Positions 9,920 through 13,580 of a DNA stretch of 16,342 nt are shown piece by piece. Location of the stretch: contig NHDL02000002.1 in NCBI GenBank assembly GCA_002167555.2, forward strand, positions 41,717 through 58,058. Reading direction: 5' to 3'. The notes beneath the pieces are model-generated. The model worked only from the letters and a program-made list of their open reading frames with translations. It had not been told where the DNA came from and ran no database searches. This stretch comes from Deltaproteobacteria bacterium TMED58. Its GTDB lineage: Bacteria; Desulfobacterota_D; UBA1144. Each line of letters starts with the position of its first letter. The stretch's first letter is position 1. Both the position numbers and the translations under genes were made by a program.

Positions 9920-10651
9920 ATGAAACAAGCATTAGTTATTTTAAGTGGAGGCCAAGATTCTATTACATGTCTTTTTTGGGCAATTAGCAATGGCTATAAC
10001 TGCTCAGCCTTAACTTTTGATTATGATCAATTACATAATATAGAAATTGAGTCAGCAAAAAAAGCGGCACAAATAGCTGGAATAAAAAACCATGAGATAT
10101 CTACTATTGGACCGCTTTTTTCGGGTAATTCCCCTTTGACAAATAAGAGCATGGAACTTGAGCAATATTCGAATTTGGCAGATGTAAGTCCAGGCATACA
10201 AAAAACGTTTGTCCCTGGACGTAATTTATTGTTTTTGTCTTTAGCCGCAAATAAAGCTTATTCAATGAACATAGACACTATGATAACGGGCATATGTCAA
10301 GAGGATTTTGGTGGATACCCTGATTGTAGAAGCGATTTTATAAAAAGTCTTGAAGAAACAATTAAGCTAGGCATGGAAAAGGAGATAAAAATCTTAACAC
10401 CTTTGATGGACATGAAAAAATCAGAGATTGTTATGATGGCCAAAAACCTACCAAAAGAATGTTGGGAAGCTCTATCTTTTTCACATACCAGCTATGATGG
10501 TAAATATCCTCCTACATCAAATGATCACGCTAACCTTTTAAGGGCAAGAGGTTTCGAAGAGGCTGGTTTACCTGATCCATTGGTAGAAAGAGCAGTAGCA
10601 GAAAATTTGATGGAATTACCCAAGACGAGAAATTATGAAAATCAAGATTAA
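9920..10651 (+). CDS. queC: 7-cyano-7-deazaguanine synthase (QueC), without the usual zinc cysteines
   Basis: ATP-dependent conversion of 7-carboxy-7-deazaguanine to preQ0, on the way to queuosine in tRNA. The 243-residue protein has the PP-loop ATP motif SGGQDS (9-14), VPGRNLLFLS (98-107), a TGICQEDFGGYPDCR segment (123-137) and the C-terminal LLRARGFEEAGLPDP. In E. coli QueC four cysteines (188, 197, 200, 203) bind zinc just before the LR motif; here the matching stretch 189-204 is HTSYDGKYPPTSNDHA, with no cysteine but with H189, D202 and H203. Everything else looks intact. It starts the run queC-queE-sirtuin-like-thyX and overlaps queE by 17 bases. The adjacent QueE makes its substrate. 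Function as preQ0 synthase is likely; the metal site is unusual. Confidence 0.92.
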   Translation: MKQALVILSGGQDSITCLFWAISNGYNCSALTFDYDQLHNIEIESAKKAAQIAGIKNHEISTIGPLFSGNSPLTNKSMELEQYSNLADVSPGIQKTFVPGRNLLFLSLAANKAYSMNIDTMITGICQEDFGGYPDCRSDFIKSLEETIKLGMEKEIKILTPLMDMKKSEIVMMAKNLPKECWEALSFSHTSYDGKYPPTSNDHANLLRARGFEEAGLPDPLVERAVAENLMELPKTRNYENQD

Positions 10652-11279
10652 TGAAATTTTTTTTTCTTTACAAGGAGAAGGCTTGCAAGTTGGAGTACCA
10701 ACTATCTTTATACGTCTCTTTGGATGTAGTTTGAGATGCTCTTGGTGCGATTCGATGTATTCAGTCGAAGGTGATGATTATAATGAATTAAATACTGATG
10801 AATTATTAAATATAATTGAAAAAATTGAATGTAAAAATATTTGTATAACAGGTGGAGAACCATTAGAGCAAAAACTTCAACTTGAAAATTTGACTAATAT
10901 ATTACTAGATAGAAATTATAAGATTTTATTAGAAACCGCTGGGCATATTAAACCTATTGAAATATTTAAAAACCCCAATGTAATTATTAGTATGGACTGC
11001 AAGTGTCCTAGTTCAAATATGCAAAAAAAGACTAATGTAAAATATTTAAAAGCTCTTGAGAGTAAAGATCAAATTAAATTTGTAATTAATGATATTGTAG
11101 ATTATGAATATGCCAGAGATTTTGTCACTAGCAATAATTTGAGGGCCAAGATAGTTTTTCAACCGGTTTTTGGTTCAGATCTTAAGGATTTAGCTAATTT
11201 AGTTCTTAGAGATAAGTTGTTAGTTAGGGTTGTTCCTCAGCTACATAAAATAATATGGGGAGATATACGGGGTGTATAA
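10635..11279 (+). CDS. queE: 7-carboxy-7-deazaguanine synthase (radical SAM)
   Basis: Converts 6-carboxytetrahydropterin to 7-carboxy-7-deazaguanine by a radical ring contraction, directly upstream of QueC in the pathway. The 214-residue protein starts MKIKINEIFFSLQGEG, typical of the family, and has the iron-sulfur motif C31-x3-C35-x2-C38. ITGGEPLEQ (71-79) is the SAM-binding stretch and VPQLHKIIWG near the C-terminus is the usual ending. The length is normal. A GAG triplet 5 bases upstream may act as ribosome site. It overlaps queC by 17 bases and the following gene by 25 bases. QueD and folE, which provide the substrate, are not in this window. Confidence 0.95.
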   Translation: MKIKINEIFFSLQGEGLQVGVPTIFIRLFGCSLRCSWCDSMYSVEGDDYNELNTDELLNIIEKIECKNICITGGEPLEQKLQLENLTNILLDRNYKILLETAGHIKPIEIFKNPNVIISMDCKCPSSNMQKKTNVKYLKALESKDQIKFVINDIVDYEYARDFVTSNNLRAKIVFQPVFGSDLKDLANLVLRDKLLVRVVPQLHKIIWGDIRGV

Positions 11280-11983
11280 TTAATAATACTGTAATTCTCC
11301 TAGATAAGAACTTTTATAAAAAAGGACAAATTGAGAAGCTTTTAAGCTATGAAACACGCCCTAATATTAGCAGTTTCAGGTCTGATAGTTCAATTAGAGA
11401 CAGGTTCCTCAAGGATTTTCGAAATATTATGAAACAAGCAGGCCCTTTAGAGCTATCTTCCGATTATAAAAAAGTTTTACAAATCGAAAAAAATTCAGAA
11501 ATTATAGGAGTTATAAATTTGAATATAGATGGAATCCTTAAGCTCAACGGAGCTCAAAAACTAATAGAACTTGAAGGAAATATTAGTTGGTTCTATTGTT
11601 CAGAATGTGGAATGGACAAGGATTCTAATTTAATTGTGGAGGACGACAAAGAATTTAATTGTAATTCATGTGGAAAAAACATTCTTAAGCCTAGTATCCC
11701 TTTTATAGGACAAGAGTTTTCACAATGGGACCTTAAAGACTCCTGGATGATGTTAAACTCTTGCGATAATCTAATAATTTTTGCTGACAATTTTCTCTCA
11801 CCTGTTACCATTTCTTTTATAGATATTGTTGAAAAAAGGATGAAAAATACAAAAATTGTATGCTCGGAATTATTAGATAGCACATTGAATGATTTTCCAA
11901 ATAATAATATCAGTTTTATATATGAGTCCAATGAGTCTTATTTGAATATACTTATGAATACATATGGAGATAGTTTAGTTTGA
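11255..11983 (+). CDS. Sirtuin (Sir2)-like protein, probably catalytically dead
   Basis: The 242-residue protein lines up with the order of sirtuin landmarks but lacks the chemistry. Seen: SSFRSD (39-44) where sirtuins have GIPDFR; INLNIDGILKLNGA (87-100) in place of TQNIDGLHxxAG; ELEG (105-108) in place of ELHG, so the catalytic His is Glu107; four zinc-type cysteines C115, C118, C136, C139; KPSIPFIGQ (145-153) in place of RPxVVFFGE. The NAD-binding GAGxS loop is missing; VILLDKNFY (13-21) occupies its place. The fold and zinc ribbon thus seem kept while NAD binding and deacylation are lost. The ATG start lies inside queE (25-base overlap) and the TGA overlaps the thyX start, so it is built into the operon and not a decayed remnant with stops. 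The role is unknown; the sirtuin link is inference from motif order. Confidence 0.65.
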   Translation: MGRYTGCIINNTVILLDKNFYKKGQIEKLLSYETRPNISSFRSDSSIRDRFLKDFRNIMKQAGPLELSSDYKKVLQIEKNSEIIGVINLNIDGILKLNGAQKLIELEGNISWFYCSECGMDKDSNLIVEDDKEFNCNSCGKNILKPSIPFIGQEFSQWDLKDSWMMLNSCDNLIIFADNFLSPVTISFIDIVEKRMKNTKIVCSELLDSTLNDFPNNNISFIYESNESYLNILMNTYGDSLV

Positions 11984-12651
11984 AAATAAGATTAGTAAGT
12001 TTTTCTAAGCCCACAGAAGAGTTTTTAGGTGATGGAGTATCTAATGTTCAGGAGTTAATTGCTTTTTGTGCTAGAGTTTCTAATCCATCAAATCAAGTTA
12101 ATAATGAAACAAGTGAAAAGTTAATAAGCTACTTAATTAAAAATAAACACTGGTCACCTTTGGAGATGGTTAGTGCATGCATTGAAATTGAGACAACAAG
12201 GGATATTGCGAGACAGATATTGCGTCATAGATCTTTTAGTTTTCAGGAGTTCAGCCAAAGGTATGCAGATCCAACAAAAGATTTATCCTTTGTTACAAGA
12301 GATGCAAGATTGCAAGATAAAAAGAATAGGCAGAATTCTTTAGAGTCTAACGATCCAGATTTAGCCAAGGAGTGGAATAAGAAGCAAGAGAAACTTATAG
12401 ATTTAGCAAAAGACACATATGTCTGGGCGATTAATCAAGGAATTGCTAAAGAGCAAGCTAGATCAGTTTTGCCAGAGGGCAATACTGTTAGTAGGATGTA
12501 TATGAACGGAACATTGAGAAGTTGGGTCCACTATATTGAGCTTAGAAGCTCTAATGGTACCCAAAAAGAACATATGGATATAGCAATTGCAATTGCGAGC
12601 GTAATTAGTGATATTTTTCCAATGGCAAAGAATCTAATAAGTAAGACTTAA
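11980..12651 (+). CDS. thyX: FAD-dependent thymidylate synthase
   Basis: Makes dTMP from dUMP with methylenetetrahydrofolate and reduced FAD, replacing ThyA. The 223-residue protein contains the defining RHR-x7-S motif (R82-H83-R84 to S92), the nucleotide-binding RSVLPEGN and the conserved LRSWVHYIELRS followed by Q and E near the C-terminus. The start is TTG in a TTGA overlap with the stop of the sirtuin-like gene, preceded 9 bases upstream by GGAGA, one of the better ribosome sites here. The 3' end overlaps the next gene on the opposite strand by 4 bases. Use of ThyX is common in small, slow-growing or AT-rich genomes. Confident identification. Confidence 0.96.
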   Translation: MKIRLVSFSKPTEEFLGDGVSNVQELIAFCARVSNPSNQVNNETSEKLISYLIKNKHWSPLEMVSACIEIETTRDIARQILRHRSFSFQEFSQRYADPTKDLSFVTRDARLQDKKNRQNSLESNDPDLAKEWNKKQEKLIDLAKDTYVWAINQGIAKEQARSVLPEGNTVSRMYMNGTLRSWVHYIELRSSNGTQKEHMDIAIAIASVISDIFPMAKNLISKT

Positions 12652-13580
12652 CTATTTAAACTTATAATTTCAATTCCATCCTTTTTTATTAGCTCAAGAT
12701 TTTCGTTGTCAGGAAGCTCAAAAGTTATAATTTTTTTTATTTTTGATCCAGTAAATTCTGAGAAACCAATTTTGTTCATATAGCAAATATTGATTAATTC
12801 TTTCAGACTAACACTATCTATTATTAGATTCGAAGGCATTATCTCATTAACATTCTCAATAAATGAATTGAGTGAATTATTATTTGTAAATTTATTTTTA
12901 AATTTAATAAATAGTAAGTTTAAAACTTTTGAAAAAATATCCTTTTTAAGATATAAAGACGCGCAGAATTCATTTTCATTTATTATATTAAATGTTGATT
13001 CGTTTTTTCTGGCAAAATCATTTATATCTTCCATTGTGTAGGTTTTAATAGAATTTGATTCCAAGAAGGAAATTGTCTTGGATAGATTGATTTTAATTTC
13101 CTTATCTATTTTTGTGTCTTTTTTTGATAACAAGCCAATTTTATAAATATTTTGTAGTGATATTGAATTAGAACTAGATTCTTTAGTTTTTTTAAAATTT
13201 TGTATACTAATAATAATCTTATTTTTCGTTAAATTTTGTAAAATGTGGTTGTCATTTATATCAAGAATTGTATCAACTAATATAATATCAAAGTCTAAAT
13301 TGAACTGCACATCTAGAAGTCTGGATTTGCTTGCAAAATTAAGTGAGCAGCCTAAGTTAATTAGGCAACATTCAAGAACATAAGAGTCGATACAGTTTGC
13401 TGATAAGCTAAGAACTTTTCTATTAATAAGTTTATTTTTAGTAAGATATGAATTTACATACTCAATGTTTGAATATATATCATTGAAAGTTATCTGCTTC
13501 CAATTCATTCCATCCAAAGTTTGGTGGGCTAGCCTTGAGCCATTTTCTTTTAGCAGTATTTTTAGTGCACTTATATTCAT
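12648..13580 (-). CDS. Unrecognised protein resembling a truncated acyl-CoA synthetase (ANL) N-domain
   Basis: No family is certain for this 310-residue, Ile/Asn/Lys-rich protein. Its order of segments resembles the N-terminal domain of AMP-forming acyl-CoA synthetases: KQITFNDIYSNIEYVNSYL (28-46) like the TYAEL helix; VLSLSANCIDSYVLECCLIN (56-75) then LGC, like the VALLLPNxPEYV-LA-LRLGA region; FDIILVD (97-103) like AKVLIVD; YTMEDI (181-186) like the LTHRNL that follows the phosphate loop; and GSKIKKIITFELPDNENL (278-295) like the GGAPL region. The expected TSGTTGxPKG loop is absent (about 170-180 instead), and the protein stops just where YGxTE would come. It therefore cannot be a normal adenylating enzyme. 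The frame is intact. It could be a decayed paralogue, a regulatory pseudoenzyme or an unrelated protein. It is divergent from the CCA enzyme gene and convergent with thyX. Confidence 0.4.
   Translation of the reverse strand: MNISALKILLKENGSRLAHQTLDGMNWKQITFNDIYSNIEYVNSYLTKNKLINRKVLSLSANCIDSYVLECCLINLGCSLNFASKSRLLDVQFNLDFDIILVDTILDINDNHILQNLTKNKIIISIQNFKKTKESSSNSISLQNIYKIGLLSKKDTKIDKEIKINLSKTISFLESNSIKTYTMEDINDFARKNESTFNIINENEFCASLYLKKDIFSKVLNLLFIKFKNKFTNNNSLNSFIENVNEIMPSNLIIDSVSLKELINICYMNKIGFSEFTGSKIKKIITFELPDNENLELIKKDGIEIISLNS

Follow-up and report, generated by a model that had tools for sequence, protein, structure and literature searches.

A predicted pseudo-sirtuin encoded beside thyX in the Dadabacteria as a possible noncatalytic binding partner

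The sirX locus and its protein

The window analyzed here is a stretch of 16,342 nucleotides from a small-genome member of the Dadabacteria (genome size of 1.01 Mb). Between queE and thyX, it contains an ORF for which the name SirX is used here (Table 1). The frame, encoding 242 aa, is uninterrupted, in agreement with the earlier note, which had described an intact gene for a catalytically dead sirtuin. The marine family that includes the window is designated f1, and the other Dadabacteria families are designated f2 to f8.

Table 1. Genes of the sirX locus and features of SirX (positions in the window)
Feature	Position	Strand	Remarks
queC	9920..10651	+	Neighborhood; not counted in the SirX module
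queE	10635..11279	+	Immediate neighbor of SirX in some loci only
SirX, predicted pseudo-sirtuin ORF	11255..11983	+	242 aa; probable true start at 11276 (ATA) or 11279 (ATT)
Degenerate NAD-binding loop, residues 13-25, VILLDKNFYKKGQ, replacing canonical xxxTGAGISxxSG	11291..11329	+	Alignment of 49 orthologs and 21 canonical paralogs
Codon 107 (Glu), position of the catalytic His (Sir2Tm His116)	11573..11575	+	PDB alignment and column counts
Trp112, SirX invariant, not in canonical sirtuins	11588..11590	+	Alignment
Zinc ribbon Cys115/118/136/139, SirX invariant	11597..11671	+	Alignment
SirX signature Gln153, Trp158, Trp164 (GQ....W.....W), after the site of the FGE peptide-binding loop of sirtuins	11711..11746	+	
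thyX, flavin-dependent thymidylate synthase of the single-domain phage type; RHRSFSFQEFSQRY motif complete	11980..12651	+	Constant neighbor of SirX
Degenerate acyl-adenylase (ANL/AMP-binding)-like gene	12648..13580	-	Between thyX and pcnB; conserved across the phylum

SirX matches the Pfam model SIR2 (PF02146) with an E value of 2.4e-13 and 50.8 bits (cut-off of 24), NCBIfam deacylases with E values down to 1.8e-15, and Sir2Tm in the PDB with an E value of 3.3e-8, which places its similarity to sirtuins far above chance. Yet it remains below every NCBIfam deacylase cut-off tested. The window protein stays far under them, with a best score of 57.1 bits in the CobB/PRK00481 equivalog test against a cut-off of 221, and a copy from family f5 is also below, with 194 versus 320 bits.

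The sirtuin motif order described in the earlier note is found as given there, with FRSD at residues 41 to 44, NID at 90 to 92, ELEG at 105 to 108, and KPSIPFIG at 145 to 152, together with the four zinc cysteines (C-x2-C...C-x2-C, residues 115, 118, 136, and 139), which are invariant in every row compared. The alignments likewise bear out the two reported defects, the absence of the GAGxS loop and the replacement of the catalytic histidine, since Glu107 lies opposite His116 of Sir2Tm. The nicotinamide-pocket motif TQN.D is also altered, reading NLNID in f1 and mostly TQ[A/T/S].D in f2 to f8.

An AlphaFold2 model of SirX, built from 23 relatives, shows a pLDDT of 87.3 and a pTM of 0.86. Foldseek aligns this model with 1s7g (E value of 9e-14; TM of 0.72) and VIA-align aligns it with Sir2Tm 2h2i (Z of 19.9 over 222 residues); sirtuins appear throughout among the matches listed by both programs. 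The model thus predicts a Rossmann and zinc-ribbon sirtuin fold for SirX over its full length. The earlier note had proposed such a structural comparison and had held that a lack of any match would speak against its reading; the match found spans the whole protein.

The called ORF overlaps thyX by 4 bases and queE by 25 bases. The former overlap stands as the earlier note had given it; the latter is doubtful, since the ATG at 11255 is not conserved and is followed two codons in by an in-frame TGA in three of the four same-genus relatives (L032 to L034). In L034, a GTG occupies codon 8, and in L032 and L033, just ATA/ATT at codons 8 and 9 are available before codon 34 or 16. The shared start candidate is codon 8-9, ATA/ATT at 11276 to 11281, which overlaps the queE stop (11277 to 11279) and is preceded by a purine-rich, Shine-Dalgarno-like GGGGTG/AGAGGTG. 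These comparisons make ATA 11276 or ATT 11279 the probable homologous start and the 25-base overlap a probable effect of annotation. Either this genome has a private ATG, or an AUA/AUU start with coupling to queE is employed throughout the genus.

Orthologs, paralogs, and selection

A profile search of 57 Dadabacteria genomes, with SirX defined as a match of at least 250 bits, detects orthologs in 49. Every other sirtuin in these genomes scores at most 117 bits, except for one contig-split copy in genome G054. In a tree of the 49 SirX proteins and 21 canonical paralogs, the two groups are separated by a branch with 100/100 support. The GAG loop is read in all 21 paralogs sampled, and ELHG is read in most of them. 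A canonical, active-looking sirtuin is found in most Dadabacteria genomes, and that of the window's own genome is intact and located on another contig.

The GAG loop is absent from all SirX orthologs covering this region (49 orthologs compared), with TG-x-[E/D]-[L/I] in its place in f2 to f8 and mostly [DE]KN in f1. The histidine column contains Tyr in 18 orthologs, Asn in 13, Glu in 9, His in 6, Leu in 2, and Phe in 1, so the histidine is lost in 43 of 49. According to the earlier note, relatives in the same place with both an intact GAG loop and the histidine would contradict its reading; the GAG loop is missing in the relatives too, including the six that keep the histidine. At an identity of only ∼20% between f1 and the remaining families, the four cysteines, Pro36, Trp112, Lys145, Phe150, Gln153, Trp158, Trp164, and Ser187 stay the same, among them several residues that are not typical of canonical sirtuins. 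Outside the Dadabacteria, a sample of ∼329 genomes from other phyla yielded no SirX; the highest-scoring matches there (137 to 161 bits) are canonical sirtuins without a two-domain ThyX nearby. By these sequence criteria, SirX is a putative sirtuin-derived pseudoenzyme family spanning the phylum rather than a single aberrant gene.

Motif loss of this kind could also accompany a change of activity, for example, the binding of another nucleotide in a remodeled pocket or the use of Glu or Tyr in place of the histidine. The Rossmann scaffold is intact in the predicted model, f2 to f8 keep the first glycine of the loop, the TQ..D motif, and a GAN/GAS loop, the six copies with the histidine belong to f5 or are related to it, and the [DE]KN loop of f1 contains an invariant lysine. 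A new catalytic residue would be constant, however, and the residue at the histidine position varies between families; the last two GAG positions hold an arbitrary and an acidic residue in f2 to f8 and KN in f1. An altered catalytic or ligand-binding activity is therefore considered unlikely.

The earlier note had also described the gene as maintained and had suggested a dN/dS comparison. Across five same-genus genomes, pN/pS values are 0.24 for SirX, 0.22 for queE, 0.08 for thyX, and 0.35 for rimI, a rough test only because synonymous sites are near saturation. The value for SirX is that of purifying selection and resembles that of queE, which argues for its maintenance.

The distance of f1 SirX to the other families is 2.28 times that among the other families, compared to ratios of 1.3 to 1.6 for the controls pcnB, queE, atpB, c4, and the ANL-like gene and 2.23 for queC. 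Within f1, the ratio for SirX returns to 1.18, which indicates a burst of change on the f1 stem. The same stem carries a replacement of ThyX (see below), and genome streamlining, which has been described for marine pelagic Dadabacteria (PMC8115339), fell there too. The burst fits a refitting of SirX to a new partner and also a partial relaxation during genome reduction. As a separate observation, QueC of f1 is unusually distant from the other Dadabacteria QueC proteins (33%, compared to 61% among the latter), and from its sequence, the f1 queC is possibly a replaced gene.

Neighboring genes and ThyX types

Gene clustering of 20 sampled loci shows sirX adjoining ThyX in all 20 and queE in 3 of the 9 loci that hold both. 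The order queE-sirX-thyX, for which the earlier note had suggested searching related genomes, thus recurs in its second half, and its first half is restricted to few loci. By genome-wide coordinates, ThyX lies directly downstream of SirX on the same strand in 44 genomes; in the other genomes with SirX, it is nearby in 4 (convergent in one), and a contig break intervenes in 1. Among the 57 genomes, SirX never occurs without ThyX, and ThyX occurs without SirX in five, all of them f1. Three non-f1 genomes without SirX are also without ThyX and are incomplete (59 to 83%). The adjacency outlasts both a rearrangement in f3 and the exchange of the ThyX type in f1. Other pairs in the block are equally stable, with pcnB and the ANL-like gene adjoining in 19 of 19 loci, which makes adjacency by itself a weak argument for a functional link.

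A link to queuosine or deazapurine synthesis, raised by the position of the gene in the earlier note, is not supported. queE adjoins SirX in few loci compared to ThyX nearly everywhere, and no queE was found in the f3 genomes tested, in which SirX is kept.

Two further genes of the block deserve mention. A GBBH-like_N gene (PF06155, known as DUF971), represented by L047:8133-8474 (-) and others, lies antisense beside sirX in 12 of the 13 loci holding both. An N-terminal match of the ANL-like family profile to ANL enzymes has an E value of 8e-9, and those family proteins that were checked have no P-loop, YGxTE, or C-terminal lysine motif. This gene persists even in genomes that have lost SirX.

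None of the 57 genomes yielded a ThyA. ThyX of f2 to f8 comprises ∼495 residues with two Thy1 domains. In these proteins (L047:9456-10937 and orthologs), domain 1 keeps GHASVAEHA and S..E.SQRY and has lost RHR, and domain 2 keeps LLRHR and LRMSEGAQWDI and has lost S..E.S.R. These complementary half motifs suggest a single composite active site per chain. ThyX of f1 is a single-domain protein with 2cfa as its best PDB match and 62% identity to its best phage match, from a Methylophilales phage. Since this phage-type enzyme occupies the same place, an in situ replacement of the two-domain ThyX is probable.

In the five f1 genomes that lack SirX, the gaps between queE and thyX contain no remnant of it; two gaps of 319 bp hold an antisense frame resembling the DUF971 gene, and three measure 116 to 127 bp. 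The losses probably fall on two branches of the ThyX sequence tree. Only three ThyX columns, all variable and uninformative, separate f1 genomes with SirX from those without it. No sirtuin was found near two-domain ThyX in 20 loci from other phyla, and no annotated sirtuin was found near the two-domain ThyX of a Bacillus plasmid, an actinobacterial plasmid, and a phage. The five losses and the 20 sirtuin-free loci with two-domain ThyX indicate that ThyX in general does not require SirX.

The losses also bear on whether SirX is a decaying passenger kept only through translational coupling to ThyX. The fast evolution on the f1 stem, the probable two losses inside f1, and the noncanonical start codons in some relatives would agree with decay. 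Against this stand the intact frames of the orthologs, the pN/pS value of 0.24, and the phylum-wide invariance of the tryptophan, glutamine, and cysteine residues; moreover, the loss of SirX from five genomes with thyX intact shows that coupling is not needed. This explanation is already disfavored and appears very improbable.

Possible function and comparison with known systems

From the motif losses and the conserved residues, SirX most likely works as a nonenzymatic binding protein. A duplicate of a CobB/Sir2-type deacylase would have lost NAD binding in the ancestor of the Dadabacteria and would since then have been retained as a noncatalytic binding protein. The residues held fixed would be the zinc ribbon and the SirX-specific Trp112, Gln153, Trp158, Trp164, Pro36, and Arg48 around what was once the peptide-binding face, a surface that may dock another protein. 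The partner would be ThyX or a protein serving dTMP synthesis, and SirX would act as an assembly, stabilizing, or regulatory subunit. ThyX or a dTMP protein is the likeliest partner because SirX is made immediately before ThyX in the same operon, with overlapping stop and start codons in the marine family. A role as a noncatalytic binding partner, most plausibly in a ThyX module, is proposed tentatively, as a reading that may well prove wrong.

If SirX were a pseudoenzyme whose client has nothing to do with ThyX, its operon position would be historical; it might, for example, read acylated lysines and compete with or guide the active CobB-type sirtuin. The peptide-cleft region (Phe150, Gly152, and Gln153 at the position of the FGE loop) is kept and the NAD residues are lost, an active-looking canonical sirtuin is present in most genomes, ThyX does without SirX in five genomes, the block is syntenic in general, and an acyl-adenylase relative lies one gene away. 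The tunnel residues expected of an acyl-lysine reader are not kept, however, as Pro or varying residues stand in place of Sir2Tm Phe162 and His116 is mostly replaced, and peptide binding by SirX is itself putative. Such an unrelated client is regarded as rather unlikely.

The ThyX-linked reading can be extended to a dedicated partner that served the two-domain ThyX of the ancestral Dadabacteria, was refitted during the burst to the phage-derived ThyX of the marine lineage, and forms a regulatory module of two dead enzymes together with the acyl-adenylase relative that flanks ThyX on its other side; in this strong form, it is quite unlikely. If SirX does bind ThyX, it would be, to our knowledge, the first case of a thymidylate synthase with a sirtuin-fold subunit; dependence on such a subunit is not known to us for any ThyX described so far, and in the literature covered, sirtuin and ThyX are mentioned together in one paper, on jumbo phages. 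The in-place exchange of ThyX and the five genomes without SirX make the partner hypothesis directly testable by a comparison of ThyX proteins.

Among known systems, sirtuins of the CobB/Sir2Tm type (PF02146; NCBIfam NF040867, PRK00481) are closest, with matches as strong as 1.7e-57 from SirX of other families. They have the full-length fold, the zinc ribbon, and the motif order in common with SirX, which in contrast has no GAG loop, has mostly lost the histidine, and has gained the invariant Trp112, Trp158, and Trp164. Flavin-dependent thymidylate synthases of the ThyX type are related to SirX as its constant genomic neighbor. An antiphage defense sirtuin (ThsA, Sir2-APAZ, or similar) was rejected, as neither of two SirX proteins matches a PADLOC family at an E value of 0.01. 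Searches of the literature, which was covered incompletely, revealed no description of a bacterial sirtuin that lacks NAD chemistry and yet is conserved throughout a phylum, and nothing relevant on pseudoenzymes among the sirtuins, on the GAG motif, or on H116Y.

The noncanonical sirtuins FAM118A and FAM118B act through association with a partner and not alone (PMC12700824). They resemble SirX as sirtuin paralogs that work via a partner, which for SirX is presumed. Unlike SirX, the FAM118 proteins are similar to antiphage sirtuins of the ThsA type, the Asn and His of their active site are important, and their partner is another sirtuin (PMC12700824).

SirX of locus L037 shows a match to TPP_enzyme_M (PF00205) below the cut-off, with an E value of 4.7e-5. 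This domain presumably shares a fold clan with SirX (DHS-like fold). With their cofactor sites lost or altered, TPP_enzyme_M and other DHS-like members retain the fold without sirtuin chemistry; domains of this type lie within larger enzymes, in contrast to SirX, which is free-standing and contains a zinc ribbon.
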